From IMG/VR virus record IMGVR_UViG_3300047550_000671, positions 1 through 35,705 of that record: a DNA stretch of 35,705 bases, one strand, 5' to 3'. Below are positions 1,634 to 28,756 of this stretch, in pieces; positions within the stretch are counted from its first letter, which is position 1, and each line of letters starts with the position of its first letter. This DNA comes from a virus. Under the pieces are notes generated by a model, which saw only the letters and a program-made list of their open reading frames with translations, was not told the origin of the DNA and did no database searches. Position numbers and translations under genes: made by a program.

Positions 1634-4600
1634 TTAACTTACATTACCGTTTACAACGCAAACTGTACCACTGATAAACAATATAGTTGCCACACCACGT
1701 GTTGATAATGTAAGTGTTGCCTGATCAGTATCAGTACCACCAATATAAGCAGTAGTAATACTCATTGTCAATGTAATACTACCTGAAGTATTATTGAATA
1801 TTGTTATAATATCTCCCGCACTAAATGTAGAGTTAGGTACTGTTATACTACCGCCACTACCTATTTCAATAAATGTACCAACATCAGTTGTTGCTAATGT
1901 ATAGTTTGTAGTTTTTGCTGAACCTGATTGTGGAACTTTTCTGATATCACCTAGACTATCAAATACTTTAGCAGAGGCATTTAAGTTAGCAACATTAGCG
2001 TTGCCTGTAGAATTAAATGTACCAGTAACATTAGCGCCTGTACCTGTAATTACAACAACATTTGCTACACCGCCGCGACTAAAAGTAATATCACCACCAC
2101 TAGTAGCAATGTTAATATTGCTAGTACCATTTGCTAGTGGTAATGAAGCACTACCCGCCGGACCAGTAGCACCAGTCAATCCTGTAGCGCCAGTTGGGCC
2201 GCCAGTACCTGTAGCCCCGGTCGGACCTGCAATGCCAGTAGAACCAGTTGGACCTGCTGGCCCAGTAGCGCCGGTTGGTCCACCTGAAGGACCGGTCGCG
2301 CCAGTAAGACCAGTAGCACCTGTAGGTCCAGCAACACCGACTCCAGTAGCGCCTGTCGCTCCTATTACATCATAGCCTGAACCCAGTGTATCTAACCATA
2401 ACACATCCGTGTTGCTGGGCGGGGTGGGACCTTCTTCTACACCAGGTAAGCCAGTAGCCCCAACTGCGCCGCCGGCTGATATTGCAGCAAAACCTGTTAC
2501 TGCTGAACTAAATGTCAAAGTGACAGCATTGGCATTATTAAAAAATACCGATGGATAATCATAACGGCCAACATAACTATAACCGTTGGCTGCAATTGGT
2601 TCAATATTAACATAAAGACTATCTAAATTATGATTGATTGTCCAAGTTGTGCTAGCACTGCTTTGAGTGTATATGTACGAACCACCCGGAGGACCTGCTG
2701 CACCCGTAGCACCTGTCGAACCAGCCGGTCCACCTGCTGATATAGCCGCATAGCCAGTAACTGCACTGCTAAATGTCATCGTTAATGCATTGGCATTATT
2801 AAATGTTATTGTTGGATAATCATAGCGACCTACATAACTATTCCCTGTACTATCAATTGGCTCAACGTTAACATATTGGTTGTTTAAGTTGTGTGTGACT
2901 GTCCAAGTAGTGCTTGGGCTTGATTGAGTATGAACATAGATCGATCCAAGACCCGCAGGGCCTTGCGCACCAGTCGCACCAGTCGCACCTACGCCGCTGA
3001 TGCCTGATGAACCAGTATCATACCACAACACATCAGTGATAGGGGGAGCAGTGGGCCCTTCAACGATACCTGATAATCCAGTAGCACCAGTTGCGCCCAT
3101 GACATTCTGTAATTCAACGATTGATATAATAGGGCCTGCGCTCTCGCCGAATACCCATCCTGAACCATTGTTATCAACTAACTTGACTGAATAAGTGTAA
3201 GTACCGGCTGCTGGCTCATCAATGACTTCAAGTGCATAAGGAATATTTTCTTGTGTATTACTTGATTCACATTGAACATTTGCACCTACTGCTGTAGTGC
3301 CTCTAAAAATATTGAGTATAGCATAAGCGCCTGTTGATAATGGATTTGCATCGCCGGTAGCGATGATTTGTACAGGACCACCTGAGGTACTGATTGTTGC
3401 GCTAACTATAGTAAATGGCTTAGGCTCACCACTATAAACTACAATACTTCCTTTTGTCTGTGCGTAATTTACTGCTGCTAGAGTTGGGGCTACACCAGTA
3501 GCACCTTGCGGTCCAGTAGCACCCTGTATACCAGTGGCACCTGTCGCCCCTGCTCCTGTCGCCCCTTGAGGACCTGTAGCACCCTGTATACCAGTGGCGC
3601 CAGTTGGACCTGCTATACCGGTTGCACCAGTTGCTCCAAATCCACCTTGACCCCAGTATACAACACCGTTGCCGTATGTGCTTAATACATTACCATTCGC
3701 ACCACCTAAGATTCTTAAATTTGCAATAGAACCTAAGTTAGCACTTTGATTTACTAATAATGTGTTTGCTGTTAATAGGTTACTTTCTACTTCACCTGTA
3801 GGTAAAAATATATCATCTGCGGTAAAACTTCCATCAACGATAAGCGATGTCTCTGTGACAGTCACAACATTTGGATTACTGTTAACTGATATCGTCACAT
3901 TGCCTGCAGGTTGAATTACAACATTTGAATCGCCGTTGTTAATAGAACTTACATTCGCACTAACATTAGTGAGTCCACCTGCATCACCTTCGAAATATAC
4001 ACCCTTGATCGTGCCTGTTACATCTAATATATTGTTGCCGGCGTCAAACTTAAAGTTAGGACTTGCTGCGAAATTATCATTTAAATTATATTGTACTTCG
4101 TAATTGCTACCGGCTGCTTCTTGTAGATCCCAAGGTTGACCGTTAGCATAATATAAATTATCAGTAAATATCCCAGCACTTGGAATAGTGTTGGCGATAC
4201 GCACATTACCTGCAAAGTTTGCGGTGTTTGCTGAGGTATGACTATTTACTGTGAGATTACCTGCTACGCTCACAGTTGTTAGTGATGCAAAGCCTGTTGC
4301 ACTTAGGTCATAAGTGTATACTGCACCTGTTACATTTACATTATTTGCGCTAACATTACTAGTCAGTGTGATATTATTAGCCTGAACATTATTTGTTACC
4401 GTTGCATTATTTGCTGAAAGATTCGCGCCGACGCTTACATTAGTAGTGAAGTTGCCGTTGTTAGCAAATAGATTTCTTGTTATGTTTACATTACCAGTAA
4501 CATTGACATTGCCTGCTATGTTAGCAAGATTGCCTACTATGATGTTACCTGTTATAGTTCCATTGGCTGTGATGTCACCTAGTCCCATGCTTGTGTTTGG

Positions 4601-4993
4601 GACAGCACCGATCATCACATTTGGTGCAGTGTTAGGATTACCTACAACTAAACTGTTAGAGATATATGAGTTATCTCTTAAATCAATATACAATGTCTGT
4701 ATAGCATTGTTTACAGTAGTGGCATAGCCAAGACTGTTTGGTGTCAAGCCTACTTCTAAACTAGTAGTTTGTACATTTAATCTGGAAAAATCTGCCGAGA
4801 TTAATACATTGCCAGTGCTGCTATTAACGCTTATACCGGGCTGCTTGGTTCTGTTGATAGATAATACGCCGGTACTAGTCGTTAATCTATAAAGATCAGT
4901 AAAATTTTCTTGGGTTTTCTGAAACGCCGATCTGATCGGATCTGCATCTGGATCATCAGGAAAGCTACCAAAATCTATAATTTGTTGTGCCAT
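1634..4993 (-). CDS. Large tail fibre with collagen-like repeats and beta-modules (1119 aa)
   Basis: A structural fibre protein of the tail. The N-terminus (MAQQIIDFGSFPDDPDADPI, then an SAFQKTQENFTDLY segment) is of the type that anchors fibres in T4-like aquatic phages. Residues about 130-270 are Asn/Val/Thr-rich beta repeats (NVTGNVN, NLSANNATV). Collagen-like G-A-T/G-P-T triplets occupy about 453-502, 669-682, 754-771 and 878-946, expected to form triple helices in a trimeric fibre. Two copies of a ~70-residue beta-module sit at 684-754 and 772-842, and the same module occurs three times in the 693-aa fibre at 26640-28721. A second duplicated motif (EGPT.PP.TDVLW.DT) is at about 645-660 and 853-868. 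A late-type promoter lies 22 bases upstream and AAGGCGAG may serve as ribosome-binding site. High confidence as a fibre; receptor unknown. Confidence 0.88.
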   Translation of the reverse strand: MAQQIIDFGSFPDDPDADPIRSAFQKTQENFTDLYRLTTSTGVLSINRTKQPGISVNSSTGNVLISADFSRLNVQTTSLEVGLTPNSLGYATTVNNAIQTLYIDLRDNSYISNSLVVGNPNTAPNVMIGAVPNTSMGLGDITANGTITGNIIVGNLANIAGNVNVTGNVNITRNLFANNGNFTTNVSVGANLSANNATVTNNVQANNITLTSNVSANNVNVTGAVYTYDLSATGFASLTTVSVAGNLTVNSHTSANTANFAGNVRIANTIPSAGIFTDNLYYANGQPWDLQEAAGSNYEVQYNLNDNFAASPNFKFDAGNNILDVTGTIKGVYFEGDAGGLTNVSANVSSINNGDSNVVIQPAGNVTISVNSNPNVVTVTETSLIVDGSFTADDIFLPTGEVESNLLTANTLLVNQSANLGSIANLRILGGANGNVLSTYGNGVVYWGQGGFGATGATGIAGPTGATGIQGATGPQGATGAGATGATGIQGATGPQGATGVAPTLAAVNYAQTKGSIVVYSGEPKPFTIVSATISTSGGPVQIIATGDANPLSTGAYAILNIFRGTTAVGANVQCESSNTQENIPYALEVIDEPAAGTYTYSVKLVDNNGSGWVFGESAGPIISIVELQNVMGATGATGLSGIVEGPTAPPITDVLWYDTGSSGISGVGATGATGAQGPAGLGSIYVHTQSSPSTTWTVTHNLNNQYVNVEPIDSTGNSYVGRYDYPTITFNNANALTMTFSSAVTGYAAISAGGPAGSTGATGAAGPPGGSYIYTQSSASTTWTINHNLDSLYVNIEPIAANGYSYVGRYDYPSVFFNNANAVTLTFSSAVTGFAAISAGGAVGATGLPGVEEGPTPPSNTDVLWLDTLGSGYDVIGATGATGVGVAGPTGATGLTGATGPSGGPTGATGPAGPTGSTGIAGPTGATGTGGPTGATGLTGATGPAGSASLPLANGTSNINIATSGGDITFSRGGVANVVVITGTGANVTGTFNSTGNANVANLNASAKVFDSLGDIRKVPQSGSAKTTNYTLATTDVGTFIEIGSGGSITVPNSTFSAGDIITIFNNTSGSITLTMSITTAYIGGTDTDQATLTLSTRGVATILFISGTVCVVNGNVS
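2468..2944 (-). repeat. Two tandem ~70-aa beta-modules in the collagen-like fibre
   Basis: Bases 2732-2944 and 2468-2680 encode two homologous modules separated by a short collagen-like linker. Each begins Y.(H/Y)TQSS.STTWT..HNL, continues YVN.EPI and VGRYDYP, and ends NANA.T.TFSSAVTG.AAISAGG. The same module is encoded three more times at 26943-27605. Confidence 0.85.
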
Positions 4994-5014: not shown

Positions 5015-5023
5015 GTATTTATC
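5015..5023 (-). promoter_or_regulatory. T4-like late promoter (GATAAATAC) for the fibre gene
   Basis: The minus strand reads GATAAATACATTATA, close to the T4 late -10 element TATAAATA and identical at its core to motifs in front of gp13, gp19 and several other virion genes here. It lies 22 bases before the fibre start, just downstream of the terminator of the preceding unit. Confidence 0.7.
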
Positions 5024-9255: not shown

Positions 9256-10455
9256 TTACTTTCTTACCTGTGTGCCTGCGGTAGGCGTTGCTGATACTGC
9301 ATTTGGAGTAGGAGGGTTGCTGATAGTAGGTGAACCTGCCGTGCCAATGAAATAAGGAGTTACTGATCGATCGGGAATATCAAACAATATATTTCTGTTT
9401 GTGCTTACTGGGCTACCAAAACCGCCTCTTGATGGCGCTAACATTCCCTTCAATTCTGTTTTAAGAGTTTGTTTTAGATTTGAATTTTTAGCAGTACCAT
9501 ATGCAGTACCTGCATCTCTGATAGCCTTCAAAATATTTCCATCCTGTAAATCTTTGACAACGCCTCCGGCTGCATCCAACAATCCACCTGGACCTAATAT
9601 GCTACTGTTGCTACCTGGTCTTGCTATAGGACTTTCAGTTCTATCATAAGTTGCTTGATCACCGAACCCTGTCACTATGTCATTTGGTTTACGACCATCT
9701 ATAGCACCTTCATTATATACTACTGTCTCATAATCTATTGACATAGTATTTTTCATGACACCCGTGCCTTCATCATAATTGTATGTGTCATGACCAAAAC
9801 TAGTAATGATAGGATTTATTAATGTATAAGCCGTGAAATTATGTTGATTAAAACCAAATACTGTTATATTTTTAAAAAATGGTACCTTCTTACCATTTCT
9901 AGGATTTGATGTTTCTCCTATATAACCCCAGTTATCATTACCTTGTATACTATCATTATAGATATTATTGACATCGTAATCAGCATTAGTAGTACCTGGG
10001 GTATTGCTTGTGCCGGTGCTAGGAGGTGTAGCACCCCTATTGCCTAATAATACAGTTGGTTTAGTTGCATCTGCATAATAGTAAGTATAATAAGCATACC
10101 ATAACTTATTGATAGTGTTACCATTATCATCATGAAATCCTATCTGTATAGGATCATATCTTAATTTTGTTTGTATAATTCTTTTGCGATTATATTGATT
10201 TAACTGAACTGTGTTAAAACCATAACTAGGAAGTTTTATATCTTTAACTAGTATACCGTAGTTTGTATTGACACCTGTAGGATATGCTTCAGGATTTATA
10301 TTGAAGTATGTATGGAAGACAAACTTGTATTTAGGAGCATTCTGATATGAATTAGTCCTAAATGTTTTAGCGGCGTGAGTATAATCTCTAAGGTAGTCAT
10401 TGCCGAAGAAACCTTCGGCAGTGCCCTTAAGGAGATCCTGAAAGAAACCTGCCAT
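9256..10455 (-). CDS. Tail-tube-fold structural protein, possibly gp54-like baseplate tube initiator (399 aa)
   Basis: Residues about 40-140 and 195-260 carry strand patterns of the tail-tube fold: KYKFVFHTYF, then ILVKDIKLPSYGF, YNRKRIIQTKLRYDPIQIGF, and later FFKNITVFGF, TAYTLINPIITSF and MSIDYETVVYNEG. A Gly/Thr/Asn-rich insertion (about 140-190) interrupts the domain, and the last ~130 residues are Gly/Pro-rich and probably extended. T4 gp54 and gp48 use this fold to start and cap the tube on the baseplate. At 399 aa this protein is longer than gp54 (about 320 aa). It lies 20 bases downstream of the tube gene. The fold is fairly clear; which T4 protein it replaces is inference. Confidence 0.6.
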   Translation of the reverse strand: MAGFFQDLLKGTAEGFFGNDYLRDYTHAAKTFRTNSYQNAPKYKFVFHTYFNINPEAYPTGVNTNYGILVKDIKLPSYGFNTVQLNQYNRKRIIQTKLRYDPIQIGFHDDNGNTINKLWYAYYTYYYADATKPTVLLGNRGATPPSTGTSNTPGTTNADYDVNNIYNDSIQGNDNWGYIGETSNPRNGKKVPFFKNITVFGFNQHNFTAYTLINPIITSFGHDTYNYDEGTGVMKNTMSIDYETVVYNEGAIDGRKPNDIVTGFGDQATYDRTESPIARPGSNSSILGPGGLLDAAGGVVKDLQDGNILKAIRDAGTAYGTAKNSNLKQTLKTELKGMLAPSRGGFGSPVSTNRNILFDIPDRSVTPYFIGTAGSPTISNPPTPNAVSATPTAGTQVRK

Positions 10456-10474: not shown

Positions 10475-11113
10475 TTAAGTTGTTGCGCCGATACCAGTTG
10501 CGCTCTCGCCTGCTAGTATTCTGCCAATACTCTGACCAACACCACTTGTCAATGGGGACTGTACTGCGTTATCATAAGCGATACCTAACGCGATAGTCAC
10601 TGCATCGCTTGTGCCATAGTTTAAAGTATTATAGTTTGCTGACTTTAAGAAACAACCATATAGTTCCCATGTCTCAAGCACGACTGGTGCACTTGTTCCG
10701 TTACCACCATCAAGAATTTCAATGTTAGTCTGGAACTTGTAGTCTTGACCAGTTGCTGCTGATGCCTGCTCTACGAAATCTAATTGCTTCTGCAATTGCT
10801 GACCTACAGCTCTTGATACTGTGCCTGATGCATCGTCACGAACGTTGACGCTGATATCATTCCATGTATGCTTACCTGCCAACTTTACTGTTGAGTTGTA
10901 AACTTGAAGTGCGATTTCGCCGAAACTTAAGTTAGGGCGTGAGCAGTCAACTACTTGCTTAGTTAGGCTAAGACCGCCTGCTGCATCAACACCGAAGTTT
11001 AAGAAGTTGACTCTAAAACGAAATTGTAGTTTAGGCATTAACAAGCCCTGATTGCCACCGGCATTATCAGATGCTACTGTCATGTTAAACAATGATTGTG
11101 AGGCTGTTGCCAT
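10475..11113 (-). CDS. gp19: Tail tube protein gp19 (212 aa)
   Basis: Polymerises as stacked hexamers to form the inner tube through which DNA passes. The sequence has the expected order: an N-terminal strand (PKLQFRFRVNFLNFG, about 27-41), the LTKQVVDCSRPNLSF loop, a GKHTWNDISVNVRDD strand pair, and a long helix with QLDFVEQA. The C-terminal part is ETWELYGCFLKSANYNTLNY followed by TIALGIAYDNAVQ. It is somewhat longer than T4 gp19 (163 aa), as in many aquatic relatives. It lies directly after the sheath gene, as in T4. Expression looks high: a GATAAATAC late promoter and a strong AGGAGA ribosome-binding site precede it, the latter in the same TAGGAGATTTTA context as the 129-aa gene at 33683. 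Confidence 0.9.
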   Translation of the reverse strand: MATASQSLFNMTVASDNAGGNQGLLMPKLQFRFRVNFLNFGVDAAGGLSLTKQVVDCSRPNLSFGEIALQVYNSTVKLAGKHTWNDISVNVRDDASGTVSRAVGQQLQKQLDFVEQASAATGQDYKFQTNIEILDGGNGTSAPVVLETWELYGCFLKSANYNTLNYGTSDAVTIALGIAYDNAVQSPLTSGVGQSIGRILAGESATGIGATT

Positions 11114-11183: not shown

Positions 11184-14100
11184 TTACGCTCCTGACAACT
11201 CACCTGTGTTCAAGATACGAACTGGGATATAGATGAATTCAGCAGCCTTGACCGGCTCAACTGCGACATCGATCCACAATTCGTTGCGATCTATTCTAGC
11301 AGGAGTGTTGTTACTCTCATCACAGACTACCAAGTAGTCATAGATGCCTCTCTTAGATACAAGATCAACCATCAATGATTCGACAACACCAGCGATCTGT
11401 TGACGAGTCAACGCATCGTTAGGTTCAAACACGAATGGTCTTGCTGCGATAGTCAATTGACGACGGATATATGCGACAAGTCTTGCGACGTTTGTTCTAT
11501 CCAATGCACTCTGACTATTGAATGATGTCTTGTTACCATAGTTCAACAAGCCGTTACCAGTGAAGAACACTAGTGGGTTGATGAAGTTGATGTATAGAAC
11601 ATCACGGATACCGATGCGTGTCTTGATTGTCTGGAATTCACCAGTAGCACGATCTAAGTAACCGATATTCAATGCGTTATCGATGATACCACGACGTGTA
11701 CCTGCTGCTGCTAACCAAGGATAAGCCACTGTGTCATTACGCAAGAATGTGCGCAACATCATGTGACTTGCCGGTACAGCGACTTCATTGCCGTTTAAGT
11801 CAAGTGCGATACCACTTGGGTAGAACAAGCCAAGATAAGTGTTGCGTGTTACACAACCTTCTTCGCCAGTGCTTGTTGCACCTGCTGCGTTAGTTGCCCA
11901 GGCTTGAATTGCAGTTGCATCTTCTGGTAGACCCATTGGAGTGTCACCTAAGATATAACCTGTCTCACCGCGATCCGCATTCAATACAACCATATTAGGC
12001 TGACATTCTGGATAGTTTGGTGTTGCCATCAAGTTGAAGAAGTTATCTTCATCACGAATTGACAAGTTAGTATCGATTACTGAGCGCAATGATGCAACGA
12101 CCATTGCTCTCTGAGCCTTGCGACCCATGTAAGGTGCGCCATTGCTCTGTAGACCGCTTGCTGATACCCATGTGCTACGGATAGTTGGGATAGTCTCGCC
12201 TGGGAAAGATAATGCGTTGAAGTAGTTACTTCTCCACTGCTTGACATTATAACCTGAGCGGCGTGTGTTGAATAACAACATACCTACTGGATAGTTGTTT
12301 GCATTTGGTGCATCTAAGTCAAGATTGTTGCTTGTCAACAAACTCTTGATTGTTGGGATAGGATCATTAGCAGGATTGATTGTATTCTGATCGCTTGACC
12401 AACGAGCATCGGCGAATAATACGCCTGAGCCTGAAGTCTGATCAGTATTATCAATCAATACCCACATGTCTTCACCGTCAACTTGCTGCCAACGACTCAT
12501 AACTGGATAGTTCTCTAAATCGCTAGTATCTACCCATAGATCGCCATAAACTAATGCTGTGCCATCTGATTGTGTAGTTGGCATGCTTGCGCTTACGATT
12601 GGACCATTTGGATCAGTTGTGTTTGAACCGCTTGGTAGTGGGAAACCATTGCTATTGAAGTTTACATTTTTGTAACCTCTCCAACCGTTTGTTGTGTTTA
12701 CCATGATGTCACATTCGTCAGTGACACTGTAAAACCAGTTAGTGTTATTCGCTGGTAGTTCAGTTGGTGCGCCTTCATTTGCTGTGAAATCAAACGCCAC
12801 CCAATTGCTCAACACAGTATCAAAGTTGAATACTGGTAGTTGGCAAGTAGAGTTTAATGTGACCTTAGTAACGCCGCCTGCTGATACAGCTGCAACTCTC
12901 ATGACTAAATCGTTTGAACCATTGCTACCGCCCAGCTGTGCACCTGCTATAGTGATTGTATCACCCACAGCATAACCAGATCCTGCTGCTGATATAGCAG
13001 TGATTTGATAACCTACACCGTTCGCTGAAATGCTGAATTGCGCACCAGTACCGCCACCTGAAGTTGAATCCTGTGACTTACCAGTGAATAATGTTGTCAC
13101 TAGATCGCCGTATTTGCAACCATCAGTGACATTTGGTAGGAACCCTGCTTCAGTAATCAAACCATTTGACAGACCTGTTACTGTATTGAAGTCATTCATC
13201 ATGACTGATCCACCCAATGTATGAGTGATCTGTATAGACCCGTCAGTTGCTACGCTAGCAGTTGTGTATGGAATATTTGCTGCTTGCCATGCTTGAACGA
13301 AATCAGTAGCATCTGAGTTGTCAGCCAATGTCATAGCATATGGACCTGACCAACTAGTGCTATTTGGAGTAGTCACATAAATGTCTGCTGTGTATGGACC
13401 TGCTGTGAAGTTAGGTGCAGTATTTGAACCTGTTACAACAGTAGGACCAGTTGCGACACGCTTCCATAAATATATTGGACCATCTTTGTACTGATTGTAG
13501 TAATAATACTGACCATAGATAGTACCAGCTGGGATCGCCTGTCCGCCAGTTGGGTCAAGAGCAGCGATTGCTGCTGCATCATTAGTTGCTAATGATGCAT
13601 TTTTTGTGATCCATGCACTTGCTACTGCATCATATTCTTTAATCGATGCATTATAACCATTGCCTGAAGTACCCATCTTTAACCATACTGATCCAGTTGG
13701 ATGTGGGCTAGTCTGACCAGTGCCCCATAATGGCATCCCTGCTGATGTAGCATATGTTAAGTGTGCAGCATTGTAAGTACCTGCTGTGACTCCTAGATCG
13801 CTAAGTACTGTGCCTGTACCTGCTGTGATAGTGATACCGTTATTGAACTGTCCTGATACACCGATGATCAATCGTCCTGAAGAACCTGCTGCGTTTAGTC
13901 CCTGCCAGCCCAATGCATTGATTGCTGCTGCCACACCTGCTACTGTGTTTGAACCTAGACCAGGAACAGTGATTAGTGCTGAAGGATTTGCTACGCTTGA
14001 ACCGTTGTTTAATTGAATTGTGAAAGTATCACCAACATTTAATGTTGGGTTACTATTAGTACCTCTTACTGCAGGAGTGCTTTGTTCCCACGCGATTGAA

Positions 14101-14744
14101 CCAACTACTACCCAATCATTGTTTTGATTCTTATAGAAGTATTGGCCTGCTGCGCTTGGATTTAAGTTTGGCTGTAATGCGATGACTGCATAATCACCAA
14201 TCGAACCTATAAAGCCTGCTGGATAGCCTGCTACAACATTGTCTGCGTCAGTGATGACTATTGGCAACTTATTAGTGAATACTTGGGTAGTTGCGTTCCA
14301 CTCATAGATACCCCATGTTGAAGTTGTTGTATCTAACCAGTATGCGCCATCTTCTGGCTCACCTGATGGACGACCTGTCTGACCTACTAGGCTTGCTAGA
14401 TCGATATCTGCACGAAGTGCATATACACGGTTAGTTACGCCCAATGCTGAGTATGCTGCTAATAGACCGTATTCGTTCAATTCATAACCTTGAATTGGAG
14501 TACCGTCTGTAGTCTCATAGAAGAATGGTGTACCGTATAGAGTTACAAGATCACGCTGACTTGTGACCTGGAATAACTTGCCAGCATTAGCAGCAGTTGT
14601 ACCCTGCGCAATGCCTGTACCATTAGGATTTGCTTTATCCTGCGCTGTTGCAAAGACAACTAGCGGAACTGATGCTGTTGGGGCTGGAAGATATTGACTT
14701 TGGTCAATGATTGTAACTTCTACGCCTGGTGATGTAAGTGCCAT
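11184..14744 (-). CDS. gp18: Tail sheath protein gp18 with very large central insertion (1186 aa)
   Basis: Forms the contractile sheath around the tube. The N-terminus (SPGVEVTIIDQSQYLPAPTA, TSQRDLVTLYGTPFF, residues 5-75) and C-terminal third are typical of T4-type sheath. The C-terminal third shows GTRRGIIDNALNIGYLD, RDVLYINFINPLVFFTGNG, ALTRQQIAGVVESLMVDL, and ELWIDVAVEPVKAAEFIYIP near the end. Between about residues 115 and 780 lies an insertion of roughly 650 residues, rich in Gly/Thr/Asn and containing several short W/D modules (GAYWLDTT near 133-140, GSVWLKM near 351-357, GDLWVDTS near 734-741). T4 gp18 has 659 residues, so this is almost twice as long. A CTAAATAA late motif lies 55 bases upstream and AGGAAA is the ribosome-binding site. 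The inserts would decorate the outside of the sheath. Confidence 0.93.
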   Translation of the reverse strand: MALTSPGVEVTIIDQSQYLPAPTASVPLVVFATAQDKANPNGTGIAQGTTAANAGKLFQVTSQRDLVTLYGTPFFYETTDGTPIQGYELNEYGLLAAYSALGVTNRVYALRADIDLASLVGQTGRPSGEPEDGAYWLDTTTSTWGIYEWNATTQVFTNKLPIVITDADNVVAGYPAGFIGSIGDYAVIALQPNLNPSAAGQYFYKNQNNDWVVVGSIAWEQSTPAVRGTNSNPTLNVGDTFTIQLNNGSSVANPSALITVPGLGSNTVAGVAAAINALGWQGLNAAGSSGRLIIGVSGQFNNGITITAGTGTVLSDLGVTAGTYNAAHLTYATSAGMPLWGTGQTSPHPTGSVWLKMGTSGNGYNASIKEYDAVASAWITKNASLATNDAAAIAALDPTGGQAIPAGTIYGQYYYYNQYKDGPIYLWKRVATGPTVVTGSNTAPNFTAGPYTADIYVTTPNSTSWSGPYAMTLADNSDATDFVQAWQAANIPYTTASVATDGSIQITHTLGGSVMMNDFNTVTGLSNGLITEAGFLPNVTDGCKYGDLVTTLFTGKSQDSTSGGGTGAQFSISANGVGYQITAISAAGSGYAVGDTITIAGAQLGGSNGSNDLVMRVAAVSAGGVTKVTLNSTCQLPVFNFDTVLSNWVAFDFTANEGAPTELPANNTNWFYSVTDECDIMVNTTNGWRGYKNVNFNSNGFPLPSGSNTTDPNGPIVSASMPTTQSDGTALVYGDLWVDTSDLENYPVMSRWQQVDGEDMWVLIDNTDQTSGSGVLFADARWSSDQNTINPANDPIPTIKSLLTSNNLDLDAPNANNYPVGMLLFNTRRSGYNVKQWRSNYFNALSFPGETIPTIRSTWVSASGLQSNGAPYMGRKAQRAMVVASLRSVIDTNLSIRDEDNFFNLMATPNYPECQPNMVVLNADRGETGYILGDTPMGLPEDATAIQAWATNAAGATSTGEEGCVTRNTYLGLFYPSGIALDLNGNEVAVPASHMMLRTFLRNDTVAYPWLAAAGTRRGIIDNALNIGYLDRATGEFQTIKTRIGIRDVLYINFINPLVFFTGNGLLNYGNKTSFNSQSALDRTNVARLVAYIRRQLTIAARPFVFEPNDALTRQQIAGVVESLMVDLVSKRGIYDYLVVCDESNNTPARIDRNELWIDVAVEPVKAAEFIYIPVRILNTGELSGA

Positions 14745-14861: not shown

Positions 14862-15221
14862 ATGTATATGGCCGCAATCAGACCTATATGTAAAGACTGT
14901 AACAAGAACTATCGTGCCGTCAATTATATAAGAGACGGTGTGACCCATTACCGTAGTATATGTGATGATTGCGGTAAGAAAAAACCCAAGCAGAAAACAA
15001 AAAGACCCTTATGGGAAAAGGCTGGTTATAAAAAGAAAGCAATATGTGATATATGCGGCTTTAGATCATTATATCCAAGTCAGTTAACCGTGTTCCACAT
15101 AGACGGAGACCTCAAGAATACTAACTATAGTAATCTGAGGTCTATATGCTTAAACTGTGTTGAGGTCGTCAAACGCAAAGAAGTTACTTGGAAACGCGGT
15201 GACTTACAAGTTGATTATTGA
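14862..15221 (+). CDS. Small HNH-like zinc protein (119 aa)
   Basis: Four CxxC pairs are visible: C10/C13, C34/C37, C62/C65 and C96/C99. The last two flank FHIDGDLKNTNYSNLR, giving the H79-x-D81 ... N91-L ... C96-x2-C99 layout of HNH/treble-clef endonucleases. The first two pairs would form a second zinc knuckle. From memory, T4-like cyanophages carry a homologue, usually starting MAAIRP, next to the sheath gene, so the true start may be the second ATG at 14868. It is encoded opposite to its neighbours and overlaps the dNMP kinase gene tail to tail by 18 bases. Function is unproven: it may be a nicking enzyme, a homing-type relic or a small DNA-binding regulator. Confidence 0.75.
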   Translation: MYMAAIRPICKDCNKNYRAVNYIRDGVTHYRSICDDCGKKKPKQKTKRPLWEKAGYKKKAICDICGFRSLYPSQLTVFHIDGDLKNTNYSNLRSICLNCVEVVKRKEVTWKRGDLQVDY

Positions 15222-24374: not shown

Positions 24375-24647
24375 TTATTCGCCGATACTTGCGCCGAGGT
24401 CTGTGACTGAGAATATTCCTGTGCCACTTACTGCAATATATGCTATGTAATTGCCTTCGCCTACTATAAAACTATTGTTAACAGTATTCGCTGGAATAAT
24501 CTCACATGCAGTTAGATTTGCTGTTACTGAACTATTACCTACTGCTACTGCGATTGCGCTTGATGTTGTGGAAATACGAACCTTATCGGTGGTGGCTACC
24601 GCTGTTAATTGACTGGATCCGCTAGGTGTATAGATTGCTGCCGCCAT
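24375..24647 (-). CDS. Small beta-rich structural candidate (90 aa)
   Basis: A short Ala/Ser/Thr/Val-rich protein starting MAAAIYTPSGSSQLTAVATT, with alternating hydrophobic strands (VRISTTSSAIAVAVG, NYIAYIAVSGTGIFSVTDLG). It has no membrane segment or catalytic motif. The gene has its own GATAAATAC late promoter 17 bases upstream and a GGAAA ribosome-binding site. It sits between the protease and the 336-aa protein, so it is likely a virion component such as a decoration or fibre accessory protein. The function is otherwise unknown. Confidence 0.6.
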   Translation of the reverse strand: MAAAIYTPSGSSQLTAVATTDKVRISTTSSAIAVAVGNSSVTANLTACEIIPANTVNNSFIVGEGNYIAYIAVSGTGIFSVTDLGASIGE

Positions 24648-24663
24648 AATAATTTCCTATAAT

Positions 24664-24672
24664 GTATTTATC
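24664..24672 (-). promoter_or_regulatory. T4-like late promoter (GATAAATAC) for the 90-aa gene
   Basis: The minus strand reads TTTGATAAATACATTATAGG, identical through GATAAATACATTATA to the collagen-fibre promoter at 5015-5023. It overlaps the protease stop codon. Confidence 0.75.
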
Positions 24673-26638
24673 AAACTATTCTAAAGGTAACACCACCTGT
24701 CATAGTGAATGATCCAGTAGTATTTCCCGTAGTATTCTCACTATTATTATTATATAACACACGCCTAGTTCCGCCCATGAGGCTATTCAAGTCTGCCCAG
24801 TCTGCACTAGTAGCAGTCGTGGGGTCGGGTCCTTGATAAAATGTACTTGCTGATTGTGTAGTTAAACTTTGTAACCATGCTCTGATATCAGTCCATACCC
24901 AAGTTCTATTATACTGTAATTGCGCAGCGATTAATCCTGTAGCCACTGGACATGCTGCGCTAGTACCATTAAAACTTTGATCATATGAAGTCAACGATCC
25001 TGCGGGAAGTGTTCTCTGGTCAAATCTATTAAAGTTTGTCGCATCTCTATTAGCACTTAATGTTCCATCAGCAGGTGTATAACAATCTATCTGTTCCCCC
25101 ATGTCACTATAATTTACTTTTCTTTCTAGATTGCCTGCGTTAAACGAATCATCTAACGCACCTATGTTAATGACTGGATACACTACTTTCGAACCTACGC
25201 TGAACTTACCTAAGTGTTGCGGAAATCCTCTACGGCTTGTAGTGTTATAGCATGTGCTACCGAATTCATCATGTGTAGCACTGGCTAATGGAGTTGCTAC
25301 TGAATTTGACCAGTAGTTATCAAAATCAAGTTGATCACTTCCTACTTGTTTTTGATTACTGTTACCTGCAGCAGCGACAAATATAACTCCTGCTGCGATT
25401 AATTCATCACCTGCTGTAGTCAATGAGTTCGTGACCATCTCACCTTTACATCTACCACTGTCGCCGGCAGTTCCTATATAAAGCATAAAGTTAGGTTTAG
25501 AACTATATGCAACTCCACCTGCTCCTGATGTACCTTGTCTAAAATAATAATATCCTGTGCTAGGAGTTGTTGCTCTAAAACCCCAACTATTGCTTGTGAT
25601 AGTTGGATTCTTATTACCATATGTGGGATTAACTGACTTTGCCAAGTGAAATACTTTGACAACATCAAAATAATTGTCTATAGGCCATAATCCATTATTT
25701 CCATATGCGTTGACTAACCATTTGTTAGCGTTGTATGCCCAACCAAATGTTCTACCATAGGTCAATGCCATGCATGGTGTACCGTGACTTCCGTCTGGTG
25801 GTCGATTAGTATTATTACCGTTACAGTTTAATCGTGTATAATAACTCGGTACAGAAACATTACCCAACGCAGCAAATTGTGAACTGCGTTGTGTAGAATC
25901 ATTCCACCATGCTCTTGCTACGCTTTCGACTGGAACTGTAGTACCGTCCCATCTTACTGTCAATCTTGTACCTGGGCTTGCATTAAACCACGCAGGATCG
26001 AGGTAATACGGCCCTTCTAAAACTACATCAAGCACATCACAAGTTCCATTACCGGGCAATGGATTGCCGCCTACATAATCACTTGGTCCATAACCGGTGT
26101 TATTTGCAAACTCAACATGACCGAACCATCCACCATCATCTCCTACTATCACATCGATTCCAGTTCCTGTGCCAGTAGTGTTAGGTATAGTATTGCTATA
26201 GACTGTAGTTGCAGAACCACCAGTTACCCAAGGATTAGCATACTGATTACATCTTAATAATTGATACCCTGAACGATTCAAATCAGTGCTGTTAGGTGAT
26301 GCCGGCAATTGACCTACAAAATTCATGTAACATTTTGCATTTGCGCTGTATCTAGGAGTAGTATGCAATTCATCAGGCGAAGGTCTAGGAGTGTCTGGAT
26401 AGTATGTTACATTTATCTCAACAAACTTTATATCCGGATGCTTAGATAATTCTTGTGCTTCTTCATCTGTGAGCATGTAGACTGCTCTAGTGGGACTATG
26501 TTCTTTTAGATCGGTACACTCTATGGCTCTAGTTGGTATATTATTTTCTAATGTGCTATCCATAGTTAAAATTTGATGAACTCGTTCCCAAGCATCAGGT
26601 GATACAGCACCTACTGCATAATATTTCTGTTCGCTCAT
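24671..26638 (-). CDS. Subtilisin-like serine protease (S8 family) with propeptide-like N-terminus (655 aa)
   Basis: A complete subtilase active site is visible: D167 in IDVIVGDDGGWFGH, H285 in DGSHGTPCMAL, the oxyanion-hole N426 in VIFVAAAGNSNQ and S560 in FNGTSAACPVATGL. Residues 1-80 (YYAVGAVSPDAWERV ... EEAQELSKHPDIKFVEINVT) resemble the I9-type intramolecular chaperone propeptide, whose last strand precedes the mature enzyme. There is no signal peptide. A ~115-residue insertion between D167 and H285 is rich in Asn, Trp and Gly. The gene starts 1 base after a tail-fibre gene and is followed by virion candidates. This suggests a fibre-associated or particle-packed protease that attacks host surface protein or matures the fibre. 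The enzyme class is well supported; the role is inference. Confidence 0.88.
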   Translation of the reverse strand: MSEQKYYAVGAVSPDAWERVHQILTMDSTLENNIPTRAIECTDLKEHSPTRAVYMLTDEEAQELSKHPDIKFVEINVTYYPDTPRPSPDELHTTPRYSANAKCYMNFVGQLPASPNSTDLNRSGYQLLRCNQYANPWVTGGSATTVYSNTIPNTTGTGTGIDVIVGDDGGWFGHVEFANNTGYGPSDYVGGNPLPGNGTCDVLDVVLEGPYYLDPAWFNASPGTRLTVRWDGTTVPVESVARAWWNDSTQRSSQFAALGNVSVPSYYTRLNCNGNNTNRPPDGSHGTPCMALTYGRTFGWAYNANKWLVNAYGNNGLWPIDNYFDVVKVFHLAKSVNPTYGNKNPTITSNSWGFRATTPSTGYYYFRQGTSGAGGVAYSSKPNFMLYIGTAGDSGRCKGEMVTNSLTTAGDELIAAGVIFVAAAGNSNQKQVGSDQLDFDNYWSNSVATPLASATHDEFGSTCYNTTSRRGFPQHLGKFSVGSKVVYPVINIGALDDSFNAGNLERKVNYSDMGEQIDCYTPADGTLSANRDATNFNRFDQRTLPAGSLTSYDQSFNGTSAACPVATGLIAAQLQYNRTWVWTDIRAWLQSLTTQSASTFYQGPDPTTATSADWADLNSLMGGTRRVLYNNNSENTTGNTTGSFTMTGGVTFRIV

Positions 26639-26639
26639 G

Positions 26640-28721
26640 TTAACCTATACGCCAATTAGTACCGTCACTGTAGACAGGAACAGTGTTTGAGCCGCCACCA
26701 CTCACTACTGCGCCGAAATTACCTGATGCTACAAGATTGCCATCGCTGACGAATGCTTTGCGCCCTGCTGTAGTCGCTGCTGGTAAATTAGCAAACGCTA
26801 CTACACTTAATGTAACGAAAGGTACAGATAGAATATTTGTGTTAGTGTCGTAATTGAATACAGCATCGCCGTCTAATGCGCCACCGTTATTGAATTGAAC
26901 TTCTGTGTTGCTGCCGCCTGCGGGTAGTGCTTCGCCGCCGCCACCTACTACGACAACATTACCCGTCAATGCTGAACTGAATGTCAATGTTAATGCATTA
27001 GCATTGTTATAAGTGATGTTAGGGAAGTCATAAGTTCCTACCATCGAAACATTGTTTGGATAGACAGGAGTTACACTCAAATATTTTGCTGCTAGATTAT
27101 GATTGACTACCCATGTAGTATTGGCTACTGATTGTGTATGAGTATAGTAACCAGCAATATTGCTGCTGCCAATGATAGCGACATTACCTGCTTCAGCAGA
27201 ACTAAATGTCAATGTTAGTGAATTGGCGTTAGTATAACTAATGCTAGGACCATCATATCTACCATACCATGATAGATCAGCGGTGCTAGCCGGAGCGACA
27301 GCAACGAACTCTGAATTTAAATTGTGATTTATAGTCCACGTAGTGCTAGCCGATCCTTGATTATGTAAATAATATCCTTCGCTATTCCCGCTGTCTCCAG
27401 CGATAGCAACATAGCCCGTGATCGCAGAACTAAATGTCAATGTTACTGTGTTAGCATTATTGTAATAGACATTGGGATAATCATAATGTCCAGTAATAGC
27501 AGTGCTGTTAGCAAAGATAGGAGTCACACTTACATATTGAGTGTTTAAGTTATGATTGACTACCCATGTAGTATTTGCTGAATTTTGTGTGAATAGATAG
27601 TAACCTACCGCCTCAGTGCCACCTCCGCCACCGTTCGACCAATATAGATTACCTAATCCATCTGTAGTCAATACTTGTGTAGGGTTTCCACCTTCTATGT
27701 AAATGTTAGCATTTGAACCTAGATTTGAATTGCCTGTCACCGTCAAATTAGGTACTGTTAAATTACCTGTGCTTGTGATATTAGGTTGTGCTGATGTTAC
27801 TAATGTACCTGTGATTAAGTTTGCAGTTACAAGATTAGCACCCACTGTACCGCTGTTGGCATAGATGTTTGCAACTGTAGTGGCATTGCCTAGTGTTAAA
27901 TTTCTATTCGTGTAATCGTATAAGAATACTGCATCACCGGCGAAATCTGCGCCTGAATTATATTGTACGCTTAGGTTTGAACCGCCCGGCTCGCCGCCAT
28001 TCGCTGATACAGTATTGAATATGACGATACCGGTATCAGTAGGGTAGCTTCCGTATGTGCTACTATTGACAGGTATCAATAATGCTGAATCTTGATATAA
28101 ATCATATAATTGAATATTGCCGGCTACCGGCTTTAAGAAGAAATTATCACCGTTCAAGTTAGTAGCATAAGTTCCGCTACTATTGCTGATCATGTTGATA
28201 GTGATCTCTGCACCCTGATCAAAAGGATAAGAATTCTGTAATGTGACCCTTGCTGTTGTGTTAGCAGAGATAGTATTGATGTTCTGTACTACTGTTCCCT
28301 TAGGAGTCCAGTTAAGCGCACCTGAACCGTCAGTAGTCAACACATAACCTATAGCACCGCCACCTATATATAGGTTGTCGATATTACCTAGATGTATAGG
28401 AGTGCTTGTCCAATAAGTTGAATCGGCAGGTGCAGATGCGTTTCCACCTGCATTTACCCAATAACCGCTATTAAAAACTAATACTTGTCCGTTAGCGACA
28501 TTCGCTTCGATGTCTAAGTTACCTATAGCACCGTCTATCTGGCTAAATGCTATTTCGCTATAGGCAGTTAGGACTTCCACATTTTCTGTGTCACCTATGG
28601 TTTTACCTATGAAAAGTAGTTTCTGATCGCTGGCAAAACCGAATTCTGCTTCGTCAAGTTGTGGAAGATCGACTAGATCACCCGAACGCTGCTGAATTTT
28701 AGAAATCTGTATAATAGACAT
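26640..28721 (-). CDS. Tail fibre protein with three beta-modules (693 aa)
   Basis: The N-terminus (IQISKIQQRSGDLVDLPQ, then EAEFGFASDQKLLFIG) is like the Mtd-type N-terminal domain that starts many phage receptor-binding fibres. Repeated units GYVLTTDGSGALNW (about 125-138) and QVLTTDGLGNLYW (349-361) follow. Three ~70-residue modules occupy 373-441, 449-517 and 524-593, each with TTW...NHNL, a V.P... strand and NAN..TLTFSSA..G. The end (GAVVSGGGSNTVPVYSDGTN, then WRIG) is a common fibre C-terminus. A CATAAATAG late promoter lies upstream. The subtilase gene follows after 1 base. The receptor is unknown. Confidence 0.87.
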   Translation of the reverse strand: MSIIQISKIQQRSGDLVDLPQLDEAEFGFASDQKLLFIGKTIGDTENVEVLTAYSEIAFSQIDGAIGNLDIEANVANGQVLVFNSGYWVNAGGNASAPADSTYWTSTPIHLGNIDNLYIGGGAIGYVLTTDGSGALNWTPKGTVVQNINTISANTTARVTLQNSYPFDQGAEITINMISNSSGTYATNLNGDNFFLKPVAGNIQLYDLYQDSALLIPVNSSTYGSYPTDTGIVIFNTVSANGGEPGGSNLSVQYNSGADFAGDAVFLYDYTNRNLTLGNATTVANIYANSGTVGANLVTANLITGTLVTSAQPNITSTGNLTVPNLTVTGNSNLGSNANIYIEGGNPTQVLTTDGLGNLYWSNGGGGGTEAVGYYLFTQNSANTTWVVNHNLNTQYVSVTPIFANSTAITGHYDYPNVYYNNANTVTLTFSSAITGYVAIAGDSGNSEGYYLHNQGSASTTWTINHNLNSEFVAVAPASTADLSWYGRYDGPSISYTNANSLTLTFSSAEAGNVAIIGSSNIAGYYTHTQSVANTTWVVNHNLAAKYLSVTPVYPNNVSMVGTYDFPNITYNNANALTLTFSSALTGNVVVVGGGGEALPAGGSNTEVQFNNGGALDGDAVFNYDTNTNILSVPFVTLSVVAFANLPAATTAGRKAFVSDGNLVASGNFGAVVSGGGSNTVPVYSDGTNWRIG
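26943..27605 (-). repeat. Three tandem ~70-aa beta-modules in the 693-aa fibre
   Basis: Modules are encoded at 27399-27605, 27171-27377 and 26943-27152. Shared features are (Y/H)(T/N)Q, TTW.(V/I)NHNL, a P-containing middle strand, YD.P.(I/V).Y.NAN and LTFSSA..G.V. They are homologous to the two modules at 2468-2944 in the other fibre. Confidence 0.88.
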
Positions 28722-28747: not shown

Positions 28748-28756
28748 CTATTTATG
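28748..28756 (-). promoter_or_regulatory. Late-type promoter (CATAAATAG) for the 693-aa fibre and protease
   Basis: The minus strand reads GATAGCATAAATAGTTGTAC, with the core 27 bases before the fibre ATG. No other promoter is seen before the coupled protease, so both proteins are probably made from this transcript. Confidence 0.62.

Follow-up and report, generated by a model that had tools for sequence, protein, structure and literature searches.

The tail enzymes with which phages are known to breach the host surface are mostly directed at sugars or peptidoglycan. Enzymes of the proteinase K and pro-subtilisin type are secreted and carry signal peptides; aqualysin I (PDB code 4dzt), keratinase (5wsl), proteinase K (2prk) and pro-subtilisin E (3whi) share the catalytic and propeptide fold predicted for the phage protein described here, but their catalytic domain comprises ~280 residues compared with ~540 in the latter. 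The closest described viral systems are found in cyanophages. PSSM2_297 of Prochlorococcus phage P-SSM2 (~25% identity) and SSSM7_232 of Synechococcus phage S-SSM7 (~45%) are full-length relatives with the same catalytic residues, likewise located beside fibre or tail genes, with the sequence GTSSGCP around the serine as a deviation in S-SSM7. In contrast to the catalytic reading given here, both are annotated only as hypothetical proteins, and the GenBank records of the two phages list T4-GC 292 with the remark 'contains PF00082 domain'. ORF228 of Synechococcus phage S-SCSM1 (QFG06492.1) also combines an I9-like start with a subtilase (S8 at 2.9e-26) possessing the full triad and lies directly downstream of another virion protein, but differs by its length of 1411 aa, two Laminin_G_3 stretches and an identity of ~25%. 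The S-TIM54 protein (UYE97265.1, L084:7998-14420, 2140 aa) resembles the present one in its subtilase and N-terminal 80 residues, whereas an esterase-like domain (BD-FAE/carboxylesterase) is placed between propeptide and protease, Ig domains follow, and the gene lies near the portal gene.

The family is thus already recorded, as PHROG 9158 / T4-GC 292, but almost unstudied, and the protein reported here is a further member. A literature search on phage virion and tail subtilases found no description of it, and the sole S8 peptidase mentioned in the main text of Sullivan 2010 is a different one, T4-GC518. Relatives are encoded on at least 268 IMG/VR stretches and in 20 phage records, all of them cyanophages or marine single-virus genomes and mostly cyanomyoviruses, and S8 structures are numerous in viral structure comparison. 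The view of the preliminary description that such proteases are rare can therefore not be upheld.

The window, i.e. the whole analysed stretch of 35,705 nucleotides (IMG/VR record IMGVR_UViG_3300047550_000671), encodes the pro-subtilase on the minus strand, from 26638 down to 24671. The strand had not been given before; the plus-strand reading of 24671-26638 is full of stops. Gene and protein are divided as follows.

24671..26638, minus strand: gene of the pro-subtilase (655 aa), running from an ATG to the stop codon 24671-24673
26402..26638, minus strand: residues 1-79, I9-like propeptide, beta-alpha-beta-beta-alpha-beta (predicted structure, structural neighbours, weak Pfam I9 match)
26354..26401, minus strand: residues 80-95, low-confidence linker (pLDDT <50), presumed autoprocessing region
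26138..26140, minus strand: codon of catalytic Asp167, invariant (72/72)
25784..25786, minus strand: codon of catalytic His285, invariant (72/72)
25361..25363, minus strand: codon of oxyanion-hole Asn426, invariant (72/72)
24959..24961, minus strand: codon of catalytic Ser560 (69/69 reaching the site)
24734..26353, minus strand: residues 96-635, subtilase catalytic domain of proteinase-K type with large insertions (Z ~30 to 5wsl, 4dzt and 2prk)
24674..24733, minus strand: residues 636-655, low-confidence C-terminal tail ending in GGVTFRIV (model and tails of relatives)

Over its whole length the protein is matched best by PHROG 9158 (E=5.9e-94, residues 4-641), which is listed with function unknown. 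Pfam recognises Peptidase_S8 clearly above the threshold (E=9.6e-13, 48.5 bits vs cut-off 21.8), and the same profile matches 43 of 44 relatives. Asp, His and Ser follow each other in the order of family S8 and in subtilase-type motifs, namely GDDGGWFGHVEF (also given as VIVGDDGGWFGHVEF) for Asp167, GSHGTP for His285 and NGTSAACP for Ser560, complemented by the oxyanion Asn426 in AAAGNS. The conservation counts refer to 72 distinct IMG/VR relatives, with Ser560 scored in the 69 that cover its position; moreover, all four residues are kept in six of six divergent isolates, down to 25% identity. As dN to the nearest relatives amounts to ~0.20-0.29 while dS is near 2 or undefined, i.e. saturated, the comparison indicates purifying selection on the gene, without a firm ratio.

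The AlphaFold2 model, built from an alignment of 44 relatives, reaches a pLDDT of 84 and a pTM of 0.82. Superposition by VIA-align places model residues 94-639 on proteinase-K-type subtilases with Z ~30 and an rmsd of 2.3-2.6 over ~275 residues. Fervidolysin and unprocessed pro-subtilisin E head the Foldseek list, and S-SCSM1 ORF228 is the top match in the viral structure comparison (E=2.3e-35). The complete subtilase that had been read from the motifs is thereby supported, including its core in the predicted structure. By profile, motifs and predicted fold the protein belongs to family S8 and would be expected to possess proteolytic activity.

For the N-terminal domain fold and sequence score diverge. 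Modelled separately, residues 1-90 attain a pLDDT of 78 and a pTM of 0.65, and each of the best 18 PDB neighbours is a subtilase propeptide or a pro-enzyme, with moderate Z-scores of 6.5-8.2; Foldseek matches are weak (E=0.019 at best), and a PDB sequence search with the propeptide profile yielded nothing. The Pfam I9 match remains below threshold (E=0.0074, 17.4 bits vs cut-off 21.2) and is obtained for only 1 of 44 relatives. The I9-like N-terminus proposed earlier is consequently retained as a fold assignment but not as a Pfam assignment, and the domain is termed I9-like rather than a member of PF05922. In the predicted structures it sits directly before the catalytic domain, and together with the disordered linker 80-95, whose first residue Tyr80 is nearly invariant among relatives, this leads us to read the 655-aa protein as a putative pro-enzyme with a flexible processing site at which it would be cleaved. 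In agreement with the preliminary description, no signal peptide is apparent by eye at the N-terminus.

The gene is embedded in the following arrangement.

28749..28756, minus strand: late-type promoter CATAAATA, located 35 bp upstream of the fibre start; presumably serves both fibre and protease
26640..28721, minus strand: fibre-like gene upstream of the protease and in the same transcription unit; its 693-aa product has three TTWxxxHNLN-type repeats
24665..24672, minus strand: late-type promoter GATAAATA belonging to the gene that follows; shares bases with the protease stop
24375..24647, minus strand: downstream 90-aa gene (cluster c11), kept downstream in the closest relatives

Between the end of the fibre-like ORF (26640) and the protease start (26638) lies the single base that had been noted before. 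The TTW/HNLN repeats of the fibre-like protein recur in ORF 1634-4993, which matches tail-fibre families. Judged by its sequence, [GC]ATAAATA is a late-promoter variant of T4 TATAAATA; minus-strand examples are located at 5016, 7963, 11137, 16717, 24342, 24665, 28749, 32701 and 34116, and 10 of the 11 minus-strand NATAAATA sites in the window, the fibre's included, are followed by an ORF start at a distance of 12-80 bp. A TATAAATA-like promoter hence precedes the fibre and protease unit, as for a T4-like late gene, and the window scan found none directly before the protease, so that transcription from the fibre's late promoter, already suggested in the preliminary description, fits the site distribution. 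Elsewhere in the window two tail-tube-like genes adjoin each other (9256-10455 and 10475-11113), a long tail sheath gene of 1186 aa occupies 11184-14744, and a small plus-strand ORF (14862-15221), opposite to its neighbours, resembles an HNH endonuclease by eye.

Of the 70 distinct relatives in which this could be assessed, 63 have a same-strand gene at most 60 bp upstream of the protease, the exceptions including L006 and L010-L012 (L numbers denote loci of relatives). Since 71% of neighbouring ORF pairs in these genomes are same-strand and close, the short gap as such is hardly informative, and more weight attaches to the neighbour being constantly of one kind: the upstream proteins fall nearly all into one fibre-like cluster, loosely defined owing to single linkage, and two of those tested begin with the tropism-determinant domain Mtd_N. 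In length and sequence they vary greatly, whereas the protease is conserved. In the closest relative, L001, the short upstream protein carries a Peptidase_G2-like (autoprocessing chaperone) domain, with 3.5e-5 just under the cut-off, so that processing at a protease locus would not be strange.

Evidence for particle association comes from relatives. ORF228 of S-SCSM1, full-length although only ~25% identical, is annotated as 'baseplate wedge subunit (virion protein)' in its GenBank record. According to the paper on this phage (PMC9602691), 45 proteins were detected by mass spectrometry of CsCl-purified virions, and its main text does not mention ORF228 by name. The whole record contains 48 '(virion protein)' tags, as opposed to the 45 proteins given in the paper, and several expected structural genes carry none; the tag thus fits detection, but not exactly. 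The S-TIM54 relative is annotated as a virion structural protein. Fusions provide a second line: He_PIG Ig-like repeats accompany the protease in both relatives tested (L006 and L012), and the lectin-like and esterase fusions described above suggest a role directed outward rather than at maturation. By analogy to the distant relative's tag and to these fusions, the pro-subtilase may be present in the particle of its own phage, which lends indirect support to the particle-borne role envisaged earlier.

The reading we favour, an evenly poised proposal, is that the virion bears the pro-subtilase at its tail tip, where the enzyme would cut protein on the host surface. In this view a T4-like myovirus expresses the gene late and so produces, together with the fibre, a subtilisin-type pro-enzyme whose I9-like domain would assist folding of the catalytic domain and at the same time block the enzyme. 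Cleavage in the flexible linker at about residues 80-95, presumably by autoprocessing, would free the active protease without secretion. The enzyme would be incorporated in the distal part of the tail or around the fibre and might cut its host target during adsorption or penetration.

The main rival is maturation of the fibre or of neighbouring proteins: a morphogenetic protease would process the adjoining fibre, or other proteins of the tail, while the particle is being assembled, and may be retained there as a remnant. In T4-like phages head maturation is carried out by a separate protease. The fibre-like gene that in most relatives directly adjoins the protease gene and shares its transcription unit, as well as the Peptidase_G2-like neighbour in L001, are in keeping with such a function. 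It is nevertheless the less likely of the two readings, as the conserved protease would face presumptive substrates differing widely in length and sequence, an unsystematic look revealed no common cleavage motif, L006 and L010-L012 lack the same-strand upstream gene while L006 and L012 carry He_PIG repeats, and the lectin-like and esterase fusions point outward. Less probable again is a protease working inside the cell, where it would degrade or modify host proteins late in infection without becoming part of the particle. Intracellular subtilisins exist, and the apparent lack of a signal peptide would suit one, but the position between fibre-like and other late genes, the virion tag on ORF228 and the adhesive domains fused to relatives argue against it. 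A catalytically dead structural or adhesive protein keeping only the subtilase fold is very improbable, for despite the large insertions relative to proteinase K, and although enzymes are sometimes recruited as scaffolds, the catalytic residues are retained throughout the 72 relatives (Ser560 in 69) and all six isolates together with the I9-like region.

Extended from the single protein to its relatives, the favoured reading of host surface cleavage would describe a widespread T4-like class of fibre-coupled tail zymogens activated by propeptide cleavage, a generalisation that we put forward tentatively and with somewhat less confidence. If true, such zymogens would be the protein-directed counterpart of polysaccharide depolymerases and would suggest that proteolysis of surface layers or receptors is a common part of entry or release, carried out by a conserved fibre-coupled pro-subtilase that has been left as 'hypothetical protein' on hundreds of T4-like contigs. 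Cultured cyanophages, P-SSM2 and S-SSM7 among them, would allow this to be examined directly.

Within the 655-aa protein no virion-attachment domain was recognised. Short alternating hydrophobic C-terminal tails of the GLxIxGxGLxIxF type recur in many relatives, and a loosely scored version of the motif occurs in 35 of 87 relatives vs 1 of 727 other ORFs, a contrast to be taken as a lead only because the pattern was drawn from the same relatives; the tail is possibly a docking strand. Much longer C-termini are seen in L006:5001-10457, L010:5001-10088 and L012:4077-9734, single proteins of 1.7-1.9 kaa that include the protease; in a comparison with phage records the C-terminal 700 aa of the L012 fusion matched nothing. 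In L014, L018-L020, L045-L046, L053, L058-L061, L064 and L076 the catalytic serine loop is immediately preceded by an insert of ~190 residues. No Pfam domain was found in it in the two relatives tested, and the only match of the insert (184 aa) is a partial one to a hypothetical protein of S-SRM01.

A bacterial or prophage origin was considered and rejected. Only L093 matched closely in the genome scan; this short contig has been assigned to a gammaproteobacterial MAG, but the relative on it lies beside phage-like ORFs and the contig is probably phage DNA. The remaining matches mainly cover the serine region of ordinary subtilases. Finally, paired protease copies lie close together within one locus in L021, L055, L065, L067, L069 and L080.
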